Part shown: one piece after another, positions 1,592-64,000 of the stretch
How the letters are laid out: each line of letters opens with the position of its first letter
Numbering within the stretch: the stretch's first letter is position 1
NCBI GenBank assembly: GCA_963971285.1
Contig: OZ020247.1
Location: 15,582,614-15,646,613 of the forward strand
Direction of reading: 5' to 3'
DNA from: Astropecten irregularis
Lineage: Eukaryota; Echinodermata; Asteroidea; Paxillosida; Astropectinidae
Length of the DNA stretch: 64,000 bases
Made by a program: the position numbers and the translations under genes
The notes under the pieces: generated by a model
What the model was told of the DNA's origin: nothing
The model's database searches: none
Seen by the model: only the letters and a program-made list of their open reading frames with translations

Positions 1592-1735
1592 AGGATAGCT
1601 CAGATGGCAAGAGTGCTGGTACAGACTGGGTATTCTGGGGGTAGCAGGTTCGAATCCCGCTCTAATTAAGTTTTCTTAATTCACCTTTCTATGACTTAAA
1701 ATTAATCCAGTCAGTTTCCCATTTGATGATTGAAT
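1592..1735 (+). repeat. tRNA-derived SINE
   Basis: GGATAGCTCAGATGGCAAGA (A box) and GGTTCGAATCCCGCTC (B box), followed by the family tail AATCCAGTCAGTTTCCCATT and TTTGATGAT. Confidence 0.75.
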
Positions 1736-1739
1736 TGAA

Positions 1740-2237
1740 GTTTTGACATTTTTTTCATTTAAATGAGGTTGGGGCTGGGGTAAAAGCAAACAGGTAACCT
1801 GCCCTCAATCCGTGCGGACAAAATGCTGTGAAGCAAATGACACGACTTTACAGAAATCCAAATTTGTTTCTTTTGCACTCTTTTTATGACTGGAAGTATC
1901 ACTGTCACAGTGTTTTTCAACAGTTATAAATGGAAATGTGTGGTAGCCCACCCCTTTGTCCCAAGGCAACGCTCAAAATGTTCCGACTGCCTAGCTATAC
2001 ACTTCATCACCCTTCCTGTAACTCTTAAACCAATGCAAAACAGGCGTATTTTTACAGGCAAGTTGGGGGCAACAAATGGCCTTGCCCTTTTTAGAACCAA
2101 ATTCAAGGTCTGGCACTGCATGCAAAAGGAATTTTTTTTTAAAAATAAAAATGACTGTTCTATTTTCTTGGAGATTGCCTGGAACTGATTGCCTGTAAAT
2201 TGCCTCGTGTAACATGGGCTTATACCCTGTAACTTAA
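1740..2237. other. Non-coding, no recognised element
   Basis: Overlapping short open frames on both strands (1886-2277) look like nothing known and have no repeat partner in the window. Treated as chance. Confidence 0.5.
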
Positions 2238-2376
2238 GGCCGTGTCCCAATTCTCTGGCTGCGACTGCAAATAACACACAAGTCTATGTAAATGGCTGCA
2301 GTCACTGGCTAGTGGCTGCCATATATAGGTACATGCGCAATTTGCAGCCGCAGCCAGAGAGTTGGGACACTTCCTA
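2238..2376. repeat. Short palindromic MITE, about 137 bp
   Basis: Left end GTGTCCCAATTCTCTGGCTG is mirrored on the right by CAGCCAGAGAGTTGGGACAC. The arms are near identical and the centre is unrelated. No other copy was noticed in the window. Confidence 0.8.
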
Positions 2377-2568
2377 CATGTATGAGCTAGTAATCAGAAC
2401 ATAGAGCAATCATGGTTGGTACACGGCCAATTAAGAATCATATGTATACACATAAATTAAGCCCGACCAGCGGGTATACCAGCTATTTACATGCCAATGG
2501 TATCAAGCTGAGAAACTTCATTAAAATTTTGACCAACAAAAACTTTTTACAATATCTTTTCAGAGGAT

Positions 2569-2876
2569 CTGGGCCCAAATTCATGGAATCTGTTACGGCC
2601 TATTACGGCTTACGGGCACTGCTATGCGTGAAATCTATTTCATGGAATCCGTAAGCAAGAATTTCGGTTAGTGAAGAATTCCTAGGGTAACCGTGATTGT
2701 TTTCTGCTTACGCGCTGTCATATGAATTCTGCAGAAATTCCTTGCTTACTGTTTAACAGTAATATCAAAAAGAAAACTTTCCAGTGAAATACGCTAACCG
2801 TAAGCAAAAGAAATTTGCTACCGTAAGCGAAGAATTTTTGCTAAGGGTAACGGATTCCATGAAATTGGGCTCTGTT
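2569..2876. repeat. MITE with GGGCCCAAATTCATGGAATC ends
   Basis: Terminal inverted repeats CCCAAATTCATGGAATC and GATTCCATGAAATTGGGC. The interior is made of repeated GGTAACCGTAAG/CTTACGG motifs in both orientations, so most of the 300 bp could fold. Confidence 0.75.
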
Positions 2877-3417
2877 AAGGAGTGAAAGAAAAGAAAATAT
2901 TTTAGCAATATAAACTATAATTCTGGAAAAAAACAAACAAAATATTGATGGAAGCTCTTACATTCCTTTGCGTCAATTTCACGCTTTCACTTCTTTGCCA
3001 TAGAATTTATGTATTTATTTTTACTTTTTTCACGGACGAAAATGTCAATTCAAAAATAAGTGATGACTATTAATCTTTAACTGCAAAACTATAGAAAACG
3101 TTACTATTTTTACAACTTATTTTTTTTTAGTAAATACGTAAAAGAGGAAAATTTAATGCAAATTATTAAAATCACCCTCCGAAAGCCGTGATATATGCAG
3201 TGTATTGATATGCATAATGTAGCTTAAAATAAAATATACTGTGTTAAAATACAAGTGCCATTCCTTTTAACAAGAAAACCTTCACCTAAATATAACTGTA
3301 TGCAATTTTAACTTCACAAATACGTCTTTTACAAGAGCACATAAATGTTGCTTTTTTTAAGAATTAAAAAAAAAAAAAAATTGTTAATAAATGAAAGAAA
3401 ACCAAAATAGTTAGTAA
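2877..3417. other. Non-coding, AT-rich
   Basis: Poly-A and poly-T runs only; no gene or repeat seen. Confidence 0.6.
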
Positions 3418-3594
3418 TAGGGCTCCGCACTCAAGCTATTTATAGAATACGCCCTTTATATTGTCAGCTATAGTTACCTGGATGTTCGGACAAATTGCAC
3501 AACATTTACATGTAAGTTAATTGGGCAACGTGCGACTTGTTTGTCCGAACATGTGAATGTGACGTCATCCCTAGTGCGGATCCCTATTGGCCCC
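3418..3594. repeat. MITE family I, copy 1
   Basis: Begins AGGGCTCCGCACTCAAGC and ends AGTGCGGATCCCTAT (inverted ends). The interior carries GATGTTCGGACAAATT and the inverted AATTGGGCAACGTGCGACTT. A close copy lies at 11,130-11,296. Confidence 0.85.
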
Positions 3595-3657
3595 AGATAA
3601 CATTTTGAATAAACTAGATTTTTTTTGGGGGGGGGGGGGGGGGTGCTGAGTTCAACA

Positions 3658-3846
3658 TTAAGGCCTTTTCACATGATACTAAAAACATCTTGCCAGGATT
3701 GCAAGTTGTTATCCTGCTTGAGAAATCTTATGAGAGAGTCATCGTGTGAAAGGACATCAATTCTTGTGTGACCGATCGATGTCCTAGGTGAATCCTTAAA
3801 AAAATCTCTCAAGCATTTTTTTTTAGAATCGCGTGAAAAGGCCTAT
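3658..3846. repeat. MITE with AAGGCCTTTTCACATG ends
   Basis: Left TAAGGCCTTTTCACATGAT against right ATCGCGTGAAAAGGCCTA. Inner motifs AAGATTT/AAATCTT repeat in inverted order. Preceded by a G-run at 3628-3643. Confidence 0.75.
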
Positions 3847-4101
3847 AGAGAGCGTGCACGTGACGTCACTTGACAGCTTATCGGCCATTTTGGACGGCAC
3901 ACGTACGCACGCACATGCGCGTACGCGTACGTTCCAGACAGCATCATTATATGCACGCACTTCTGCGTAAGCGTCCGGTTGATTTGCAACCTACGCTAAC
4001 ACATGTGGGTTACATACACCGTACATACGTGCATTATACATGTGTACAGCGCTGCCTTCCAAAATGGCGTCCTGATCACGTGACTGCACACCCTCTATAG
4101 T
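3846..4101. repeat. MITE with TATAGAG/CTCTATAG ends
   Basis: Left TATAGAGAGCGTGCACGTGA and right TCACGTGACTGCACACCCTC plus TATAG form inverted ends. Subterminal GGCCATTTTGGA is mirrored by TCCAAAATGGC. It abuts the preceding element directly. Confidence 0.75.
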
Positions 4102-4636
4102 ATCTGTGACAAAATCAGTACAAACTTTAGCCAACAACAATGCACAGGTACAATGTACGTGAGGATACCATACAATTCCACATAATAACGGTATACATGC
4201 ATAAGTATCCATCATTTAACATAATCGTTGACATACATATCCAGCATGTCTTGTCAGAACATGAAACAAAACCAAGGTGATATGTTTTATTAAGGCCTTT
4301 TCAAGGTTTGCACATGTACAGGCGTCTATCAATCAACGTACAGCACAACATACCGTACATGTACACAATGTATCCACTATCCATACATGTATGTGCTAAT
4401 TACATAATGCAGGCTGCTTTTTCATTCAGTTTGCGAAGCCATGAGCCCAATTCCACATGCGATGTTTGCCCTCGGCTTAATCTCCCGAAATTAAATAGAT
4501 TGAATCGAACTGACCCCTGGCTAAACAAATAAAACCTAATCTATATATTTCATCTTTTAAGCCTCTAGCTTGCTAACCCCCTAAAGAACTTGAAGAAAAA
4601 GACAAAAGACAAATAAAATAAAAGAGAAACTCTCAG
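4102..4636. other. Non-coding, rich in ACATGTACA alternations
   Basis: Many self-complementary ACATGTAC-type words but no defined element or gene. Confidence 0.55.
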
Positions 4637-4976
4637 TTCAGTACAGGATTGGTAACATACACAAACAGAAATGTTCACAGATTTACGTCTAATTTTTAGG
4701 GTATGAAGATGGTGCTGGTAGAAACATACCGTTAAAATATTTCCGTCTGAAATTGTGTATCCTGAAATTAGTAAAACAACGACCGAAAACAGTTTTGATC
4801 TCGGGGTGAGATCGAAACCATTCTGAGACAGGTTTTGGCTATTTTCTTGTGACTCACATGTCCAAATGAGCTAGTCAAATTTTCGCAGGTTTATTATTTC
4901 AAGCAAAAATTGGGTCAGAAAAAGCTGTGAGTGCTGTTCTGTGATATTATTTACCAATCAAGTATTATACCTTTAA
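4637..4976 (+). repeat. MITE family B, near full length
   Basis: Starts CAGTACAGGATTGGTAACAT, contains GGTATGAAGATGGTGCTGGT (shared with family A) and GATCTCGGGGTGAGATC, and ends CCAATCAAGTATTATACCTT. Confidence 0.85.
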
Positions 4977-6123
4977 GAACACACGTCTCTAAACCTGGGA
5001 TGTGAGTGGCCACACACAACAAAAATCTGAAAACACCAAGGAAAAAATTAACATTTAAAAGTTCCTATACTTTTGAGCAGCGCAGGTGTAAACAAACAGG
5101 TGTAAATGTTAACAAAAAATTCAGAATTCAGATTTAAATCTGAAGTTTTACATCCCTGATAAACCTCAAAAGCTTTTCTGTATCAGACCCGGACATTCTG
5201 AAGGTCTTGCCTTTGTTGTGTGTCTTTGGGATATTAACGTGAACGTTTAGCTATCCGTAAACATTAACAGCCCATCCGATGTTTCGCAATAGTGAAGTCT
5301 AGTTCCGACAACTTTAATTTGTACCTGACATTGAGGCAAATTTTTTTTTATTCTTAAGTTTTGAAATGCATAGAAATGACATATATTCGTATTTAGCAAA
5401 TCCTTTCTTTTTAATCTAATCATGCGCATGACTAAAATAATGAACGGAGAATTACGAAAATACTGAAATTCGCTTCGTATTTTACACTTGCGCATAGCGA
5501 GCAAGATATCCATGCCTTGAAGACGTATAATGGATAGCGGAAAAACTGTGACGTCATAAGTACACAAATACTGGTGACATATCTGATATCCAGCAAGCTA
5601 CCTGTATCCGTTCGCTTGTGAAACCTCTCTATTGTCAATAACCTACCTCACTGAGGTTAGGGAACTACAGAATGAAAACGTGCTTGACTCCTGGGCCTGA
5701 TGTATGAAACCAATACATACAAAAATCCCTGATTCCTAAGAGATGCAGACACACTATAAATACATCCCCCAGAACCCCGATAGCAAAATAGACTGGTTAA
5801 TTTGCCTCTTGGCAAATATGATACCCTGTGAATAAAATCCGCATTTCCCCTTTCTGTCTTTTTTTCACCCCTTTTGTGACGAAGGAACTGTAATCCCTGT
5901 GACCACACTCCTCCGTCATTTCATTTCCTGTTTGTTTCCCAAGCTGAAGACAAATTATTATAATTTCAATAGGCAATTCCAATATTCTCAAAATTTTGAA
6001 TGAGGTGACTCGCATGTGCAGTGAATTTAATGAATGTGGAATATAAAAACAAAAATATCGGCCACTTTTACATGTATTATACAGGCAACGTTTTGTAAAT
6101 TTATACATTTTGGCAATCTCGCT
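4977..6123. other. Non-coding, no recognised element
   Basis: Small open frames at 5,247-6,108 on the minus strand overlap one another, show no domain and have no splice-consistent partners. Confidence 0.5.
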
Positions 6124-9113: not shown

Positions 9114-21678
<12,565 letters not shown>

Positions 21679-32700: not shown

Positions 32701-35700
32701 GTCACATATTGCTCCTCTTCACCCAGGTGTAAATGGGTACATGTGAGGGTAGAGATGGCTTTGTGGTTGATTAGCCTCTGTGCGCTTTAAAAGAAGCCAG
32801 GGCTGTATACTCCCCGGTGAGGTTTCAGGATGTAAATTATGGCCCGATGACCAGGGATAATGTAAAGCTCATAGAGAATCTTTGATTATTATGCTCTATA
32901 TAAATAGATATTATTATATTATCAAAAGAATCTCCACACACCTAAATCATACATAACATTTAGCGAGAACAAACACAAATGACTGAGGAGGATTGGAACC
33001 TGTGACTTTTAGCGCCTGGTTCTAATCCCACTTTTGTCAGTTGTCTTTGCTCTCCTGTCAATGACTTTATCTGCTCCGTTTCCCTTGCGGTTAATTCATG
33101 ATGAGTTTGATGAAAACAAAACCTGGATATAATATCCCTTCGCCGAAATAGCAGAAAAAGGTTGTACTTACATGAGCACTGCCCGCATTACCAAACGTTG
33201 ATAGCCTGAAATATGGCTTGTCAGGAGACATAAGTATCTCTAGGACTTCACTGGTCATGTCCAACTCTTGGAAGGCATCCTTCAGACCCTCGGACTGAAA
33301 AAAAGACAATCGAACATAACTGTTATTCCATTCCTTAATCATAATCCTAACCTTCTGCACCTTCCGCCAAGTCAAGAGCTGCTTACCACTACTGCAGGGC
33401 TCGAAATATCCACTAGACCTTGGACTGAGTCTAGTGATTTCAGTGTCGGTCTAGTAAAGTGTGTACCGCACTAGTCCGGCTGTCTGGTGATTTTGTTTTC
33501 CTTGCACAATTAAAACGGTGCCTAAATTTATGATTTTTGACACAATATTGCATACAATTACTGTTTTCCTATGTGCATGAATGCCACAGGTGACAGGTCT
33601 AGTGAAAAAATATAGGTCTAGTCAAATGCTTCAATTACTAGACCTGCTGTCCAGTGCTTTTTTTCACGAAATTCGAGCCCTGACTACTCATAACCTGCAC
33701 AGCGACAGTGGATCATAAACCATGCATTACAAGACAAACCACACTGTGGTCTGTAGTCATATTCAGGATACCACACTTAATACCACAAGAAAAACCATGT
33801 GTGGTCAATTGTGGTAAGGCAGTGTAATGATAGTGTAATAAGCCTTATCGCAAATACCGCCTGGTTGATTTTGGACAATGGTGGAATGGCACCATGGGAA
33901 GGAAAAAGGGGCATATATTGTACCTTTTCCCTTCCCACAGTGCCTTTCGACTATTGTCCCAAATCAACCAGGCGGTATTTGCGATAAGGCTTATGGTAGT
34001 GTAATGAGAGTGTAATGGGAGTGTAATGAGAGTGCAACGAGTGTGGAATGAGAGTGTAATGAGAGAGTAGTGAGAGCGTAATGAGAGTGTAATGAGTGTG
34101 TAATGAGTGTGTAATGAGTGTGTAATAGGAGTGTAATGAGAGAGTAGTGAGAGTGTAATGAGTGTTATGAGAGTGTAATGAGAGAGTAGTGAGAGCGTAA
34201 TGAGAGTGTGGTGAGAGAGTACTGAGAGCGTAATGAGAGTGTAATTGAGAGTGTAATGAGTGTGTGATGACTGAGAGTGTAATGAGAGAGTAGTGAGAGT
34301 GTAATGAGTGTGTAATGAGAGTGAAATGAGTGTGTAATGAGAGTGTAATGAGTGTGTAATGAGAGTGTATTGAAAGTGTATTGAAAGTGTCGAGAGTGTA
34401 ATGAGTGTGTAATGATCGAGAGTGTAATGAGTGTGTAATGAGAGTGTAATGAGAGAGCAGTGAGAGTGCAATAGGAGTGTAATGAGTGTGTAATGAGAGT
34501 GTAATGAGAGAGCAGTGAGAGTGCAATAGGAGTGTAATGAGTGTGTAATGAGAGTGTATTGAAAGTGTATTGAAAGTGTCGAGAGTGTAATGAGTGTGTA
34601 ATGATCGAGAGTGTAATGAGTGTGAAATGAGAGTGTAATGAGAGAGCAGTGAGAGTGCAATAGGAGTGTAATGAGTGTGTAATGAGAGTGTATTGAAAGT
34701 GTATTGAAAGTGTCGAGAGTGTAATGAGTGTGTAATGATCGAGAGTGTAATGAGTGTGTAATGAGAGTGTAATGAGAGAGCAGTGAGAGTGCAATAGGAG
34801 TGTAATGAGTGTGTAATGAGAGTGTAATGAGAGTGTGCTGCAGGTGTAATGCAAGTGTACTGCAAGGAATCTGCGCTCACCTTCATGATAATCTTATTAA
34901 TGACGTTGGCCGCGCAGAAGTTAAAGTCAAGCGTCTCCTCTGGTTCCATGGTCTTGATGCTGCAATCTGTGACAACTCCATTCTCTTCCAACCTGTAGAA
35001 GAAGCAATAAACCCTGCAATTAATCAGCACTGGGAGAATTCTGAGAGTGTACTAGGTGAAGTGTTGGGCTGATTGATGTAGATGACATTAGTTGTGCAGC
35101 AATTAGGCCAAAGGATCAGAGAATAGTTTTGTTACATGATTAAATGAATTTGTATAAATCCCCATTAAACACCCTAGACCCTTGTACTATACAAAGAAGC
35201 ATACCGAATCCAACATACTTCAACAGTTGGTCACAGGTTTGGTAAGTGATTGGTACTGAACCTGACAAACTTCAACAACTCTAGCTGTAGACCAACTGTC
35301 CCAAACCCAACAAAATGCCACAGTGGCTTTAAACATACGTCAACCAACACCACCACAAATTCCACCAGCAACTGTATCCAACACACATAAACAGTTGGTC
35401 ACATGTTTGTTTGGTACTGAACCTGACAAACTTCAACAGGCTCTAGCTGTTGAATTTGGATTGACTTAATATGGATGTGTCTATGCCTTGATGTGTTACT
35501 GTAGACCAACTGTCCCAAACCACACAAAATGCCACAATGCCTTTCAACACACAAGTGCACCACCACAAATTCCACAAGCAACTGTACTGTAGGCCATGGG
35601 TAACCTTAAGCACAGGAAAAATACCAGTGCACTGCCACAAACTCCAACACTTGTTTCTACAGGTCTCATGCCTTACTTCCCCAAACCTGTCAGAATGAAA

Positions 35701-38700
35701 CACTGTACTCCTGGACCTTTGGTACTGACTCAAACAAAGTCCAACAACAGGTCCTTACTGTTTGGTACCAAACAAGCCAAAGCTCAACAGACAGAATTGC
35801 CTGTTGGAGTTTGAGGCTTTGATGTACTAATGCTTACAGGAGGAGTAAAGGGGTGCCATATCCACCGTAACACATCTTCAGAGCTGGAGTCACGTTGGAC
35901 GTGCCTGTGCCAAAAATAGTCAAGCATTCCTGAACAAAAGGAAGAGAGAGAGAGGCAGAAAGTCATCAGCATGACATAAATGCACAAAGTGCTCCATGCC
36001 TACCAGCATTTATACTTATCTTTTTGATCTTTTAAAAGATCAAAAATAAAAGAGAAAATACTGAAGAAATACTGTGGCCGTTTTTCACTGTTTTCTCAAA
36101 AAGGTGGCACCGTATGGGACTGACATTTTCACAGATTACTTTTACTGTATCTTCCTTGATATTTTTGCCCATGAATCTGTATTTCTTTGACAAAAAACAA
36201 AGTATGATACTACCTTTAAGCAGCTCTATGAAATAGGCCCATCTATTGCTCCACTTACCAGTAAGATGGTAAGGTTGACCATGAAGGTAGCCGATTGTTC
36301 CTTGATGATGTATTCTTGGAAGATTCCTGACTGAATGAAGGCATTTGCCTGTACACTCTTGGAATCTTCTACTGTCACCTTCAGCCCATTCTCACTAGCA
36401 AACACTGTGGCTAGCTGTTAAAAACAATCAACATGATCAAAGTAATCAGCTCATGTCTTTAGTCTATTTTCTAAAAGAGTTGCTTATATAAATCATTAGT
36501 TACATGACTGCCATGACACTACAGAATAGCAAGGTAAGGGACATGGTTTGCTATTAATCCTATAGCAATGCATGTATTAAGAATGAGATTTCCCAAATTG
36601 TTTTCTTTACCATTCAAAAAATTACTTTCTACAACAAAGCATTAATTATTTCATGTATTTAGAACTGTCTGAACATAATCCTTGTGGACTAATGCACACA
36701 AATTCCGTCATGACTGTAGTACTGTGTAGTAGTACATACAGTCATAGAACTTAAAATACGCGGGGATTGTGATAAGACAGGTCCCAAAACTAAAAAGGAA
36801 AGAAAACTACTGTTTGAATTGAAAGTTACTTGCCTAAATATTCCTTTGTGATGTCCTCTTCTACATTATTAGCAAGATTAATTTTGTGGAAAGAGGGCAG
36901 GGCTTTGATTTTTGAGGGAAATTTTGTGGGAAAGACAGTAACGAAGATGGAACATTTCACAGCCGCATGGACGGCCGCAGAGGAGAATAGTCTGGTTTCC
37001 TCTCTGACATTTTGAAGACTCTTGATCTGTTGGGTCTGGGCACTAGACTAACCAGACCTGACAAAATGGTCTCACGCGATCAGACGGTCTGTTTTAAAGT
37101 TTACAAGAAGCGCGTAAGAAAATTGAATTTTAACCTTGAAATGTTTAACAAATTTCTTCAATCTAGGCTTTTAAGGACCCAGGAACATTTGCTGAAAGTC
37201 AAAAGTATCATTTTTGAGGAGTAGAAGTTAGTTCAGAGCCAAAAAAATCAATGTGTTTTGGGATCCCGTCAACCCACAATCGCCCAGCTGCATAAGACTA
37301 GAGGCGAGTCGGCTAGGAGGCGAGTTGACCTGATACCGTCCTACTCCTAGACTGTACATCACTAATCATCAGCCTCCTCCCTAGCACTAGCACAGTAGCA
37401 GCCACATGTGGCGGCAGCCCCAGCTGCTCGCATTACAGTCTTGGGCATTTGCTATAAACCGAGGCGTGGCCTTTGTATGCCAATTAGGTACCTTATTATG
37501 AATATTCATGATTTACGTTGAAAGGCAAAATAGGATGCCAAGCGGGCCGTGGGAGTGTCACGGTTGGAGCTGCTGAAATGTAAACAAACGCGAGATAGTC
37601 CGCCTCCAGACAGTCTCGGCCATAGACATTATAAAAAAAAAACGTATAGCTTTTGTCTCAGTGCGTGGTTTATAAAACAGTCTGAGCTGCATGATTCCGT
37701 ACAGTTGAATCGCAGACACAACATGGCGGCTACATTCAAATCCATGTGGTAGTGTCTCGTTTGTGGAAAGCTAGAGTTAATTACGCATCCACAATGTGTG
37801 TGTACCACCAGCTTTCATGTTGTAATATTTACCATAATAGAAATAGATCGTGTGTATAGTAACAGTGTTTAATGCCCTCGTGCATCAGGCATGTCCGACT
37901 AGGCGATGAATAGTAAGTATACTATCATGACAACTATAGCAAGCAGTAGGCAACGTAGACATTATTTCAATTCCCCATGACAATACCACAGCGCACCGTG
38001 ACTATTCCCGATCCCACGATCTACACCGAAGCATAGTACAGTACTAGTACTAGTCATGTACGATACTGCATTATCATGGTACACGGAGGTCATTCGTTAC
38101 AGGTCATCCATATTCATTAGATACCAATTCAACTGGATTTTTGCGGGCGCTGATTGGTTCCTCCGGAAATCCGAAGGAAAAATAAAGAAAAAGTTAAACA
38201 ATTCATAGCAAATGCCCAAGACTGAAATGCGAGCAGCTGGGTCAAATGAAGTCACGAGAGGGCGCAGTGGCACGATGGGGTCCGTTATCGAGCTTTACAG
38301 TCTTGGACCAAGACTACACAATCCCCAGAAAGTCAGCCTGCCTGGTCTAGGTCTTGACTCTAACGTTAGTCTTGGACATGTTGGAGAGTTGGACTTCAAG
38401 TCACACACTTGTCTGCCCTTCCCTTGTGGCGTTACTAGTCCGAGTAACTTGGACCCTAAAAATCGCCTTTTTTAACATTTGGACATGGTCTGGCGATAGT
38501 AGGGTCCAAGTACCTTGTTTGCATTTTGGTTGCAAGAGCTCCATTTTGCAATGTTTTGCCTCTACCCTGAGTCAAAATCCTGTGATTTCACCTTCAAAAC
38601 GATCCTAAAATGTCTCATGCGGCCAGCTATGGACCAAGGGAGAATTGGAGATTCCAATAATGACAAGGTTACTCACATTTTTTAAAGAAAAGATCATATT

Positions 38701-39215
38701 TTCCCTAATTTTTTCCGGGTACCAGTGTACAATTTGAAAAACCAAGATGGCCGACCCAACGAACACTGTGCTCATTTTATAGGAGGTTTCTGTGCCCATT
38801 TTTAGGGGAAAAATTATCTTTTCTTCAAAAAATGTGAGTAAACCTTGTCATTATTGGAATCTCCAATTCTCCCTTGGTCCATAGCTGGCCGCATGAGACA
38901 TTTTGGGATCGTTTTGGAGGTGAAATCACAGGATTTTGACTCAGGGTAGAGGCAAAACATTGCAAAATGGAGCTCTTGCAACCAAAATGCAAACAAGGTA
39001 CTTGGACCCTACTATCGCCAGACCATGTCCAAATGTTAAAAAAGGCGATTTTTAGGGTCCAAGTTAAAGTTACTCGGACTAGGGCGTTACCAGCTTACCT
39101 CTTTATCCTTGAAATGTATCGCTTTCAGGACATTGGACACATTTCTTGCATTATCAGCCTTGGCCACGAGTATAAACTGCGAATCTTCCTCACTCTGTTG
39201 CGTCGATAAAGTCAT
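29728..39215 (-). CDS. RAD1: RAD1, subunit of the 9-1-1 (RAD9-RAD1-HUS1) checkpoint clamp, 8 exons, 282 aa
   Basis: Coding exons in transcript order: 39215-39099, 36414-36259, 35929-35838, 34992-34881, 33294-33172, 32515-32451, 31429-31285, 29766-29728. Each has GT-AG borders and the phases join without error. RAD1 is a PCNA-like nuclear clamp subunit that, with RAD9 and HUS1, loads at damaged DNA and supports ATR-CHK1 signalling. Recognised blocks: NARNVSNVLKAIHFKDKE, SVQANAFIQSGIFQEY, EPEETLDFNFC, NVINKIIMK, DMTSEVLEILMSPDKPYFRL, STFGNAGSAH, KVSIRIDNRGFLSLQYMIRN and EDGQICFVEYY. The last exon is only 13 codons, beginning CAPDEEQDED. The length equals human RAD1. The start at 39215 aligns with the vertebrate N-terminus and has A at -3; an in-frame upstream ATG would add 24 residues. 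Introns 1 and 4 carry large repeats close to their donors. Confidence 0.97.
29860..30223 (-). repeat. MITE family A, full length
   Basis: TTAAAGGTAATATCATACTT to AAGTATGATACTACCTTTAA, inverted internal motifs (CAGTCCCATAAGGTGCCCAC). In RAD1 intron 7. Confidence 0.92.
30344..30680 (-). repeat. MITE family B, minus orientation
   Basis: ATGGTTGGTAAAGCAAAGAT to TTCTGTTTGGGTATGTTACC; contains TCGGACATCTGAGTCACGAG. Confidence 0.85.
30682..30760. repeat. Palindrome family E
   Basis: AGTTAGGAGGGCCTGACATT and GAAACGTCAGGCCCTCCAG flank GATCCTAGCAAGATCTCTC. Sits directly at the end of a family B element. Confidence 0.8.
30778..31140 (+). repeat. MITE family A, full length
   Basis: TTAAAGGTAGTATCATACTT to CAAAGTATGATTACCTTTAA. 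Two inverted family A copies (29,860 and 30,778) flank families B and E in a 1.3-kb cluster. Confidence 0.92.
31430..32020. other. RAD1 intron 6 sequence, no defined element
   Basis: Short plus-strand frames at 31,653-31,931 are not recognisable. Confidence 0.5.
32022..32240 (+). repeat. MITE family J, longest copy
   Basis: AATAGCACTCCGCACTTGCA to CATTAGTGCGGAGCGCTATT. Inner inverted pair CTCAGACAAACATTG and GTTTGTCTGACATCC. Confidence 0.85.
32578..32925 (+). repeat. tRNA-derived SINE with conserved central domain
   Basis: Head GTGGGTTCGAATCCAGCC (B box), then CTTGGGCAAGACGCTTTGTC and TTCACCCAGGTGTAAATGGG, a central domain I recall from SINEs in many marine invertebrates. It ends in an ATTATTATATTAT tail. 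In RAD1 intron 5. Confidence 0.8.
32970..33105 (-). repeat. tRNA-derived SINE, degenerate
   Basis: GAGGATTGGAACCTGTGAC resembles an inverted B box, followed by the family tail CTCCGTTTCCCTTGCGGTTA. Confidence 0.55.
33393..33688. repeat. MITE with CAGGGCTCGAAAT ends
   Basis: Left GCAGGGCTCGAAATATCCAC, right CACGAAATTCGAGCCCTG. Inner TCTAGTGAT/GGTCTAGT words recur. CAGGG ends suggest a hAT relative (inference). Confidence 0.8.
33838..33996. repeat. Palindromic MITE beside the GTAATGAGAGT satellite
   Basis: ATAAGCCTTATCGCAAATAC is mirrored by GTATTTGCGATAAGGCTTAT. The arms run about 45 nt (CGCCTGGTTGATTTTGGACA). Flanked on both sides by AGTGTAATG satellite words, so it inserted into the array. 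Confidence 0.9.
33997..34863. repeat. Minisatellite of GTAATGAGAGT-type units in RAD1 intron 4
   Basis: About 870 bp built from 10-12 bp units (GTGTAATGAGA, GTGTAATGAGT, GAGAGCAGTGA, GTGCAATAGGA). A higher-order block of about 115-130 bp containing GTATTGAAAGTGTCGAGAG recurs three times (about 34,368, 34,549, 34,682). The array ends about 20 nt from RAD1 exon 4. Confidence 0.93.
35220..35800. repeat. Degenerate tandem repeat in RAD1 intron 3
   Basis: Words ACAGTTGGTCACA, GGTACTGAACCTGACAAACT, GTAGACCAACTGTCCCAAAC and CACCACAAATTCCA recur in order at a spacing of about 175-190 bp (35,222, 35,393), then decay. Confidence 0.8.
36018..36219 (+). repeat. MITE family A, 5' truncated
   Basis: GATCTTTTAAAAGATCAAAA to AAGTATGATACTACCTTTAA; ends about 40 nt from the RAD1 exon 2 donor side. 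Confidence 0.88.
36415..37295. other. RAD1 intron 1, no defined element
   Basis: Short plus-strand frames (36,830-37,224) lack recognisable content. Confidence 0.5.
37300..37425 (+). repeat. Duplicate of the foldback right end and its flank
   Basis: GGCGAGTCGGCTAGGAGGCG through GTTGACCTGATACCGTCCTA, CTAGACTGTACATCACTAAT and CAGCCACATGTGGCGGCAG is nearly identical to 21,283-21,380. The copy includes sequence beyond the foldback. Confidence 0.88.
37430..38427. other. RAD1 intron 1, no defined element
   Basis: GACTGTAATGCGAG-like words at 37,429 and the inverted GACTGAAATGCGAGCAGCTG at 38,219, with TTTGCTATAAACCG against CATAGCAAATGCCCAAGACT, suggest the ends of one roughly 800-bp inverted insertion. 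The interior is not recognised. Confidence 0.45.
38428..39090. mobile_element. Large near-perfect foldback element at the RAD1 exon 1 donor
   Basis: Arms 38,436-38,698 and about 38,813-39,081 are inverted copies about 265 nt long with only scattered differences; the spacer is about 110 nt. Ends TAGTCCGAGTAAC and GTTACTCGGACTA. A direct repeat GGCGTTAC flanks both sides (38,428-38,435 and 39,083-39,090), a 7-8 bp target duplication that would fit a hAT-like element. No coding capacity. Confidence 0.93.
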
Positions 39216-46900: not shown

Positions 46901-49900
46901 GTGTATACATGCAAAATTAGAGAAAGTATAATTACGAGGGGAAAAAGCAAAAAGAAAAAGGAAGCAAAAAGGAAGAACCATGGGAAAAAGGAAGGAAGCA
47001 CGCCCACGAAGGAAAGAGTGGAATCACAAATGAAAGAATACAGGGAAGGACTGAAGCACAAAGGAAGGAATGAAGAAAGCAAGGAAGCCCAAAGAACAGA
47101 ATCAAGGAAGCACGAAGGAAAGAATCAAGGAAGCAAAGAAACACGAAGGGAAGAACCAAGGAAGCACTAAGGAAAGAATCGAGGAAGCGCAAAGGAAAGA
47201 AGCAAGAAAGCAAGGATGCACGAAGGAAAGAAGCAAGGAAGAAGCACAAATGAAAGAATCAAGGAAGCAAAGATACACGAAGGAAAGAACCAAGGAAGCA
47301 CTAAGGAAAGAATCAAGTAAGCACTAAGGAAAGAATCAAGGAAGCAAGGAAACACAAAAGAAAGAATCAAGGAATTAAAGAAGACCAAAGGAAAGAATCA
47401 AGCCGAAGCAAGGAAGCACTAAGGAAAGAATCAAGGAAGCACTAAGGAAAGAATCAAGGAAGCACTAAGGAAAGAATCAAGGAAGCAAGGAAACACAAAA
47501 GAAAGAATCAAGGAATTAAAGAAGACCAAAGGAAAGAATCAAGCCGAAGCAAGGAAGCACGAAGGAAAGAATCAAGGAAGCAAGGAGGGGAGGAAGCACG
47601 AAGGAAAGAATCAAGGAAGTAAGAACCACAAATGAAAGAATCAAGGAAGCAAGGAAGCACAAAGGAAAGAATCAAGAAAGCAAAGAAGCACAAAGGAAAG
47701 AATCAAGTAATTAAAGAAGACCAAAGGAAAGAATCAAGCCGAAGCAAGGAAGCACGAAGGAAAGAATCAAGGAAGCAAGGAGGGGAGGAAGCACGAAGGA
47801 AAGAATCAAGGAAGTAAGGAAACCCAAAGGAAAGAATCAAGGAAGCAAGGAAGCACGAAGGAAAGAATCAAGGAAGCACGAAGGAAAGAAGCAATGAAGC
47901 AAGGATGCACGAAGGAAAGAATCAAGGAAGCAAGGATACACGAAGGAAAGAATCAAGGAAGCAAGGAAGCACGAAGGACAGAATCAAGGAAGCAAGGAAG
48001 CACGAAGGACAGAATCAAGGAAGCAAGGATACACGAAGGAAAGAATCAAGGAAGCAAGGAAGCACAAAGGAAAAAATCAAGGAAGCACGAAGGAAAGAAT
48101 CAAGGAAGCAAGGACGCAAGGAAGCAAGGAAGCAAGGAAGCACGAAGGAAAGAAGCAAAAAGGTAAGTAAGTAAGTAAGGAAGAAAGAATCATTAAGCCA
48201 AGAGGAAGAAGAAAGACAGCGGGGAAGCAGGGAATTAAGGATAACGAAGGAAAGGAAACCATGCAGGAGGCAAACAACGCGGATGATCCAGAAGATGGGA
48301 AAGGGAGCAACGTGAATTGAGATGAAATGTATACGCACCCAGACAGCGATCATGACCGGTATGATGGGTATTGACGCCAGAAAACACTGAAACCTCCATC
48401 CAGAGACAGGTAGGATCGTGTATCCTAATGTGGCCACATACACGCTGCCAATCCCGAAGGAGAACTGTTAGGGGAGTAGATGAATGACTTCATTAACCAG
48501 GACCTACCGTAAATATAATCTACTGTCTTTGGCATTGTCTTTACTCACTCATGCGTGAAGTATATGTATCGTATGAATAGTACCAATGGAAAGCTAAGGA
48601 ACTAAGCTTTTTAGATATGTGTCATTTATTATTTAAAAGTGAAATCAAGATAGGATTAATTTAAATATTAGCAAATCTCGGTTTCGTTGTTTTTTCTGGG
48701 ACACCATAGCTTTATACATAATCTTTGGCATTCCAACGGGTACTTTGGTTCCACAATCCCTTAAATGTTTTCGTAAGTGTTACCTTATGGAGGAGTCCTT
48801 ATATAAAGGATAACTAAAAACAAAGTTTAATAATAACTGTTTCTATTATACAAGTATATGTATCACTGGTGTCGATTTCTTTTCATTGGGGGGGGGGGGT
48901 GATTGGTTTTTTTGGTGTCCTATGCGAGGAAGCCGACCGAGCGGGGGGAGGCTGTGGGAGGCGGGACACCCCCTACCAAACCAGGGACTTTTTATTAAAA
49001 ATAAACAGAGTCGAAAAGTTGCATTTTAGAGCATTTAAAAACGATATTCAGAAGAATTAGACATTATATGTGTAGTATAAATTCACTGCGAAGACACAAA
49101 CAAAAACAAGGATCATGTAATATTTCTATACAATAAACTTGAGTGACATTCAACCTCGAAATATCGGGGTGGGGGGTGATAATACACGCCAACCCCCACC
49201 TCAAATATTGGGGGGATTCCCCCATCCGCCTCGGAATCGACACCCATGATGATTCCCTCAAACCAATCAAACTGAAATTCGGGCGATTACAAATAGCGGG
49301 CCTCTGTGAGTTTGCAACGCGTTGGGCAATCAGAATGTGCATTGGGTCGTCAACATTTATTTTTGTTTCCGTGTAGGATTCTGTTGGTTTTCACGTGCAT
49401 TTCGCAGTTATAAATACATGCGTAATCGCACTATTCAGCCTTCTCGATACATTTTCCCATCAAATTGTATACAATAATGAAACTGAAGGCTATATATTGC
49501 GCATACCCAATGATGCACTTTGACATATGGCTATTCTCTTTGAAACAGCCTTTGTCTTCTGCATGTGGACCATATTGGAGATGATTGGCATATCCAAATG
49601 ACCAGCAAGAAAAAGGAAAACCCACACACCTTTAACTACTCGTGATGATAAGTTAAAATCTATATATTAAGCTGAAAGATATAGAGCGATATATGAGAAA
49701 ACTGCTGGTATACTCGACCCTAATCTAGATCATGCTTCATTGCCGTTGGACCATGCGTAAATGATGTATAGGCTATATTATGTATATAGGCCTTCTGCTT
49801 ACTGGTTAAAAAAGGCGGTACTTATAATACTCAATGCTACCAGATAATGTTACCGTTGGTGAAAATAATGTCTGCGAAAAATATTATTACAGTTGTTCGT

Positions 49901-62296: not shown

Positions 62297-63262
62297 TATA
62301 CAGGGTGTCCCAAAAAAAAAATAAACCGAGATTTGTCAGTGTTTAATCCTATTTTAATTTCACTTTTGAATAATAAATGACACATATCTGGAAAGCTTAT
62401 TTCCTCAGCTTTCATTTGATACCATTCACATGATCCATACTTCACGCATGAGTGAGTAAAGACAATATTAAGCAAGACTATCAAAAAGTAATTTGCACAA
62501 CGATATTTTTATTTTAAAGAATCAATCACATTTCTAGAAACTACATTTCCTGGCCTTTGAAATGATGCCTCGGTCAAGAAAAATGAGCAAGGGATGACAG
62601 AGATATCTGCCTTTAAAATGGATTGAAAATTTTTGTTTTTCAAATCCTTCGTTTATACCTGACCGATTTTTTTGCATGAATGGATGTGGATCGATTATGT
62701 CCATTAAGAACGTGCGTGTTAAAATCCCTGCCATCCTCCCATTCCTTCTTTCTAGCCCGGATTTATTCACTAAGTCTTTCTTTCTATTCTTTTTATTCAC
62801 ACATGCGTGAAGTATGAATCTCATGAGAGGTATGTAATTGAAGAGGGGGAACTAAGATTTCTAGATGTATCATTTATTAATCAAGATTGTGTGATTAATC
62901 ATAACAAGTTTATTTCATCTCCGCATCCTTTCATGGGAAAAATCGGTCAGGTGTGAAAAAGGATTAAAAAAACAAAAAACAACAATGAAAATTCAATCCA
63001 TATTTAAAGGCAGATATCTCTGTCATCCATTGAAAGGCCAGGAAATGTAGTTTCTAGAAATGTGATTGATTCTTTAAAATAAAAATATCGTTGTGCAAAT
63101 TACTTTTTGATAGCCTTGCTTCATATTGTCTTTACTCACTCATGCGTGAAATATGGATCATGTTAATGGTATCAAATGAAAGCTGAGGAAATAAGCTTTC
63201 CAGATATGTGTCATTTATTATTCAAAAGTGAAATTAAAATAGGATTAAACACTGACAAATTG
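62297..63262. mobile_element. Large palindromic element, about 340-370-nt arms
   Basis: Left arm 62,320-62,690 and right arm 62,930-63,262 are inverted copies: GATTTGTCAGTGTTTAATCC against GGATTAAACACTGACAAAT at the outer edge, and CTGACCGATTTTTTTGCATG against CATGGGAAAAATCGGTCAG inside. The left edge is TACAGGGTGTCCCAAAAAA. The right edge is lost in the hexamer array. The spacer holds a third, diverged ACATGCGTGAAGTATGAATC. No long frame. Confidence 0.9.
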
Positions 63263-64000
63263 AAATTGAAATTGAAATTGAAATTAAAATTGAAATTGAA
63301 ATTGAAATTGAAATTGAAAATGAAATTGAAATTGAAATTGAAATTGAAACTGAAATTGAAATTGAAACTGAAATTGAAATTGAAGCTGAAGCTGAAACTG
63401 AAATTGAAATTGAAATTGAAATTGAAACTGAAACTGAAACTGAAATTGAAATTGAAACTGAAACTGAAATTGAAATAGAAATAGAAATAGAAATAGAAAT
63501 AGAAATAGAAATAGAAATAGAAATAGAAATAGAAATAGAAATAGAAATAGAAATAGAAATTGAAATTGAAATTGAAATTGAAATTGAAATTGAAATAGAA
63601 ATAGAAATTGAAATTGAAATTGAAATTGAAAATGAACTTGAAATTGAAATTGAAATTGAAACTGAAACTGGAACTGAAATTGAAACTGAAATTGAAATTG
63701 AAGCTGAAACTGAAACTGAAATTGAAATTGAAATTGAAATTGAAATTGAAACTGAAACTGAAATTGAAATTGAAACTGAAACTGAAATATAAATATAAAT
63801 TGAAATTGAAATTGAAATAGAAATAGAAATAGAAATAGAAATAGAAATAGAAATAGAAATAAAAATAAAAATAAAAATTGAAATAGAAATGGAAATGGAA
63901 ATGGAAATGGAAATGGAAATAGAAATAGAAATAGAAATTGAAATTGAAATTGAAATTGAAAATGAAATTGAAATTGAAATTGAAATTGAAATTGAAATTG
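63258..64000 (+). repeat. GAAATT/GAAATA/GAAACT hexamer array, continues past the window
   Basis: About 740 bp of strict 6-bp periodicity. Variants occur in blocks: AAATTG (63,258-63,470), AAATAG (63,472-63,558), mixed AAATTG and AAACTG (to 63,790), AAATAG (63,818-63,860), AAATGG (63,888-63,920), then AAATTG to the end. Confidence 0.97.

Follow-up and report, generated by a model that had tools for sequence, protein, structure and literature searches.

The stretch of the Astropecten irregularis genome analysed here (64,000 nucleotides, called the window; positions 15582614-15646613 of contig C10, OZ020247.1) encodes the checkpoint gene RAD1 on its minus strand, and the first intron of this gene holds a 646-bp foldback element, the subject of this report. 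The coding part of RAD1 exon 1 (window positions 39099-39215, minus strand, 39 codons) translates into a peptide matching a RAD1 chain in PDB (E 2.1e-7), and the frame at 33091-33450 matches Rad1 both in Pfam and in PDB. The gene was traced through seven exon pieces, the coding sequence staying open across all of them, and when joined they cover the whole Rad1 profile (positions 1-257 of 257, E 8.2e-86). Because the seventh piece is itself followed by a donor, one more short exon, the last, probably lies beyond it. Intron 1, as mapped from the exons (36415-39098, minus strand, 2684 bp), opens at 39098 with the donor GTAAGC. Another RAD1 intron, between pieces 34881-34991 and 33169-33294, contains an 11-bp tandem array (AGTGTAATGAG, 77.5 copies, 33998-34859), the minus strand of which is open for 343 and 366 codons through repetition.

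The element (38436-39081) begins and ends with TAGTCCGAGTAAC, as described in an earlier sequence-only reading of this DNA, which had called it a near-perfect foldback, and consists of two inverted arms separated by a 93-nt loop (38709-38801). The inverted-repeat search of the window returned three pairs: 38445-38670 with 38841-39066 (226 nt, 99% identity), 38669-38708 with 38802-38841 (40 nt, 90% identity) and, at the outer ends, 38435-38450 with 39067-39082 (100% identity). The arms measure 273 nt on the left (38436-38708, plus strand) and 280 nt on the right (38802-39081, minus strand), slightly longer than the 265 nt or so first proposed, and the right arm bears a 6-bp tandem duplication near its outer end (TAACTT on the minus strand), also apparent in the alignment of copies. 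Arms of this size make up most of the 646 bp, which is the structural mark of a foldback; no tandem array with a score of at least 120, and thus no arm repeat in the style of the Tm1 and Tetris elements, was found in 38436-39081. A 12-bp repeat, TAGGGTCCAAGT, is present twice in direct orientation, 553 nt apart (inner copy 38500-38511, outer copy 39053-39064). The element is non-coding; open reading frames (ORFs) of up to 89 codons are listed on its minus strand, a list not compared with protein databases. With terminal inverted repeats (TIRs), a target-site duplication, many copies and no transposase, it has the features of miniature inverted-repeat transposable elements (MITEs) and other non-autonomous TIR transposons.

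The target-site duplication reads TGGCGTTAC on the left (38427-38435) and GGGCGTTAC on the right (39082-39090), with one mismatch between the two. Its length was taken as 9 bp because other copies carry 9-bp duplications, and the 8-bp direct repeat GGCGTTAC noticed previously is real as the matching part of it. The placement of the insertion beside the first donor was correct: exon 1 ends at 39099 and the right-hand duplication at 39090. The donor GAG/GTAAGC is intact, the insertion lies 8 nt past it, the right-hand duplication copy occupies intron positions +9 to +17, and the element begins 17 nt into the intron.

The whole assembly (475.7 Mb, 168 contigs) was searched for relatives. Exact matches to the 13-base end numbered 471, against 16 for the pattern read backwards as a control, which excludes a chance origin and also disposes of the concern that the element might have no other copies in the genome. 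With the left arm as query, 605 candidates were found, and the best 40, which were scored, all had 99-100% identity. A complete listing of ends for contigs C1-C12, obtained through partition by the preceding base, gave 210 exact ends: 104 form 52 inward-facing pairs less than 7 kb apart and 106 are unpaired. By coordinates, the pairs range from 53 bp to 6350 bp in length, with 19 of the 52 at 600-660 bp and six at 86-88 bp. Forty-four two-ended copies were read as sequence, and other pair lengths are coordinates only. Copies with target duplications, which the sequence-only reading had proposed to look for, are numerous; the duplications are of 9 bp rather than 7-8 bp. That the inverted arms are an artefact of assembly, a doubt raised at the outset, is practically negligible as an explanation: long palindromes can be mis-assembled, but the same structure stands at many other places with different flanks and its own 9-bp duplications, and the window copy has a private 6-bp duplication.

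A recurring short form shows how long and short copies may be related. Two 87-bp copies (L037 and L038; individual loci are given L numbers) are exact reverse complements of each other, each with an exact 9-bp duplication. This form corresponds to the opening 76 nt of the window copy joined to the canonical final 23 nt, the two sharing TAGGGTCCAAGT at the join, and is explained by a deletion between the 12-bp repeats inside the long element. As the 87-bp copies sit at separate sites with duplications of their own, the form appears to have moved independently after the deletion. Family copies are also nested in other family copies with their own duplications (L066, L063).

In the 9-bp comparison, 27 of the 44 two-ended copies had exact duplications, seven (the window copy included) one mismatch, three two mismatches, and seven four or more. 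Among the last seven, L021 (C1:30081600-30082900) lies between exact 15-bp repeats (GGCCTACTCCTTATC) rather than 9-bp ones, in L064 and L033 the duplication seems to be separated from the end by additional bases, and another copy belongs to the nested cluster L063 as its inner pair. When flanks were mispaired across copies (a control using 40 pairings with at most two mismatches), two or fewer mismatches arose in one of 1000 draws. A weak preference for a palindrome (G at position 1, T at 3 and Y at 4, with the mirror image) was seen in the 36 duplications with at most one mismatch and was reached by none of 5000 draws from the flanks; the RAD1 insertion site fits it only partly.

Twenty-two copies of 600-660 bp were aligned. 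The window copy differed from their majority by three substitutions in 640 sites (two of them private) and seven gap columns, the other aligned copies by 1 to 53 substitutions (median 9). Six of the seven gap columns are the TAACTT tandem duplication, absent from all other loci compared. With so few substitutions, the window copy appears to be young. Youth had been proposed before from the high identity of the arms, and the age, but not that argument for it, holds. Two arm-arm substitutions lie in the outer 230 nt, at 38594 and 38606, where the window copy has the family majority state on both sides (majority support 20/22 and 22/22 in the left columns, 18/22 and 15/22 in the right). These mismatches were carried over from the source copy, and the age of the insertion therefore cannot be read from the identity of the arms.

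The consequences for RAD1 were judged by comparing the predicted folds of a filled (1071 nt) and an empty (416 nt) pre-mRNA. The insertion might alter RAD1 expression, through a hairpin that hinders U1 binding and splicing, through ADAR editing or through dicing into small RNAs. A long duplex is a suitable substrate for double-strand-RNA enzymes, and the element starts 17 nt into the intron and folds alone to a predicted -503 kcal/mol over its 646 nt. Such an effect is nevertheless unlikely: GTAAGC is intact, the seven located exons keep an open coding sequence, and at 14 donor positions from -3 the predicted unpaired probability differs by no more than 0.07 between the filled and empty forms, a calculation that does not support the altered U1 access suggested earlier. 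In these predicted folds the hairpin is self-contained, and the insertion is probably neutral in RAD1. Exon circularisation is not expected from the arms, which sit together in a single intron with no exon between them. Editing by ADAR or small RNAs from the arms are possible.

By anatomy the family leans towards the Mutator-like superfamily, because it combines a 9-bp duplication with long arms, as in the published reasoning for Tetris and Tm1. In the available part of PMC6446971, Mutator-like elements (MULEs) are given duplications of 8-11 bp and long TIRs, a range that includes the 9-bp duplications counted above (27 exact and seven with one mismatch among 44). The MULE domain PF10551 had 33 matches in the genome. 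No pair of family ends was found at the 16 of these loci read with 1.5 kb or more of flank; eight further matches are, by coordinates, more than 20 kb from any exact end, and the remaining nine were not compared with ends. Single end-like strings with two or three mismatches, never paired, occur at L051-L055 and L070, and 6.3 kb separate the match at C9:9890805 from L060, a complete copy whose own duplication has one mismatch. Two of the MULE loci, L067 (C10:8672900-8678600) and L068 (C11:23673200-23678900), have 640-aa frames and share 5.3 kb at 99.6% identity. Neither inverted ends nor family ends were seen in them, and their likeness reflects a recent duplication or a long mobile unit.

The family could also belong, possibly though not probably, to a superfamily other than Mutator, such as Merlin, which makes 8-9 bp duplications, or an undescribed one. 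The want of paired family ends in the 16 loci read around MULE-domain matches speaks for this, as does the fact that the family ends start with TAG, unlike the G-rich start of the ends of many MULEs. Against it, 9-bp duplications with arms of hundreds of bases fit the MULE range as given in the same part of PMC6446971. Two further assignments were rejected on duplication length, which is 9 bp in this family: hAT, for which the available part of PMC2874221 gives 8 bp, and Galileo and the P superfamily, with 7 bp.

Several long copies were considered as autonomous parents and rejected. L030 (6350 bp; C1:29775400-29782600) holds a nested non-LTR (long terminal repeat) retrotransposon, with an uninterrupted 1198-aa frame (1696-5289, minus strand) matching RVT_1, endonuclease and PHD domains. 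L029 (2420 bp; C8:26052000-26055200) contains LTR-like direct repeats of 468 bp at 96.8% identity, which surround about 1.07 kb (721-2720) in the manner of a small LTR element without coding sequence. In L061 (2714 bp; C8:31992100-31995200), the middle (527-2589) is a different high-copy inverted repeat, which has 398-nt arms at 97.5% identity and is nested in the family copy; the best 40 of 1622 genome candidates for it were scored, giving 45 match rows, of which the best 21 had 92-100% identity. A tandem repeat lies in the middle of L060 (2771 bp), the longest ORF of which is without a Pfam match, and no frame tested in L060 or L061 matched Pfam at E up to 1. Forty of the 106 unpaired ends on C1-C12 (33 on C1 and seven on C8) were read 0.7 kb inward, and no transposase was reached from any of them within that distance. 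At least 60 nt of family arm were present at 32 of the 40, and nine showed a mutated opposite end followed directly by a copy of the 9-bp duplication. Of the eight ends lacking such an arm, two (L107 and L115) are alike into the flank and belong to one larger repeat.

Foldback transposons of several animals resemble this family in part. That of sea urchins is said to make 8-bp duplications, differing from the 9 bp found here. Described by Lieberman et al. (1983, as cited in the available part of PMC4079207), it shares the long terminal inverted repeats, a comparison by description only. The other comparisons likewise follow those parts of the cited papers that were available. The Mutator/Foldback element Tm1 of root-knot nematodes (PMC3169594) shares long TIRs of the foldback type, a 9-bp duplication at most copies, short forms resembling MITEs and the lack of coding sequence in most copies. 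It differs in having TIRs of short tandem repeats and asymmetric end motifs, whereas the ends of the RAD1 element are alike, and in a known copy encoding a MULE transposase, of which none was found in the present family. Tetris of Drosophila virilis (PMC4079207) shares long TIRs, a variable non-coding middle and 8-10 bp duplications; that source reports no autonomous copy either and places the element near Mutator on duplication length alone. It has TIRs of up to 1735 bp, containing tandem repeats of 220 bp, and just three complete copies, against the 273-280 bp arms and hundreds of ends found here. Galileo, a P-superfamily foldback of Drosophila (PMC3573991), is similar in foldback form, very variable arm length, mostly non-coding copies and nesting, but makes 7-bp duplications instead of 9-bp ones. 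Rehavkus (PMC6446971) shares the 9-bp duplication and has TIRs of 26-400 bp; it differs in its PHD-finger transposase and a minisatellite before the 3' TIR, neither of which the window copy has, while L060 has a tandem repeat in its middle and a longest ORF without a Pfam match. Literature searches on echinoderm and sea urchin foldbacks gave no description of the present family among the matches listed, the matches listed for the 13-base end had titles unrelated to transposons, and a viral contig collection had no match to a 21-base element end.

The RAD1 element is a member of a large family of the ordinary non-coding transposon kind. The long inverted arms, fixed ends, 9-bp duplication, large same-end family, and the retention of both ends in short and long forms alike point to a transposon. 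Very probably a non-autonomous DNA transposon of the foldback kind, with long TIRs and MITE-like, inserted at this locus recently; it is probably neutral in RAD1. A transposase encoded elsewhere, or lost since, would recognise the element ends in trans, cut the element out and join it at staggered 9-bp cuts, after which host repair would generate the duplication. In RAD1 intron 1, beyond the U1 pairing site, the element would most likely fold on itself and leave with the intron, with little or no effect. Four points weigh against this explanation. No transposase-bearing family copy was found among the long copies, the ends read inward and part of the MULE matches; 10 of the 44 two-ended copies had two or more mismatches in the 9-bp comparison; copies were chosen as best matches or by exact ends, and the sample therefore leans to young ones; and a single folding calculation underlies the judgement on RAD1.

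Elsewhere in the window, the plus strand of a minisatellite at 47053-48158 has an open frame (KESRKQ-like), and an array of the hexanucleotide AAATTG (63257-64000) runs past the window end. Three tRNA-like genes were recognised by Rfam (15186-15258, 19259-19331 and 1355-1426), and ARAGORN calls only the first (tRNA-Thr).

It is very unlikely that a still-moving young foldback family has placed a long double-stranded RNA behind the RAD1 donor, that carriers differ in splicing or in hairpin-derived small RNAs, and that the family is moved by a kind of transposase with which foldbacks of this lineage have not so far been connected. If true, the 9-1-1 gene RAD1 would offer naturally occurring alleles graded in DNA-damage checkpoint strength. 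The analysis also provides an example of arm-arm identity as a poor clock for foldbacks, arm mismatches coming from the source copy. It adds a well-marked foldback family, with fixed 13-base ends, 9-bp duplications and recurring forms of 87 bp and about 640 bp, and a ready presence/absence marker in RAD1, tagged by its private 6-bp duplication.

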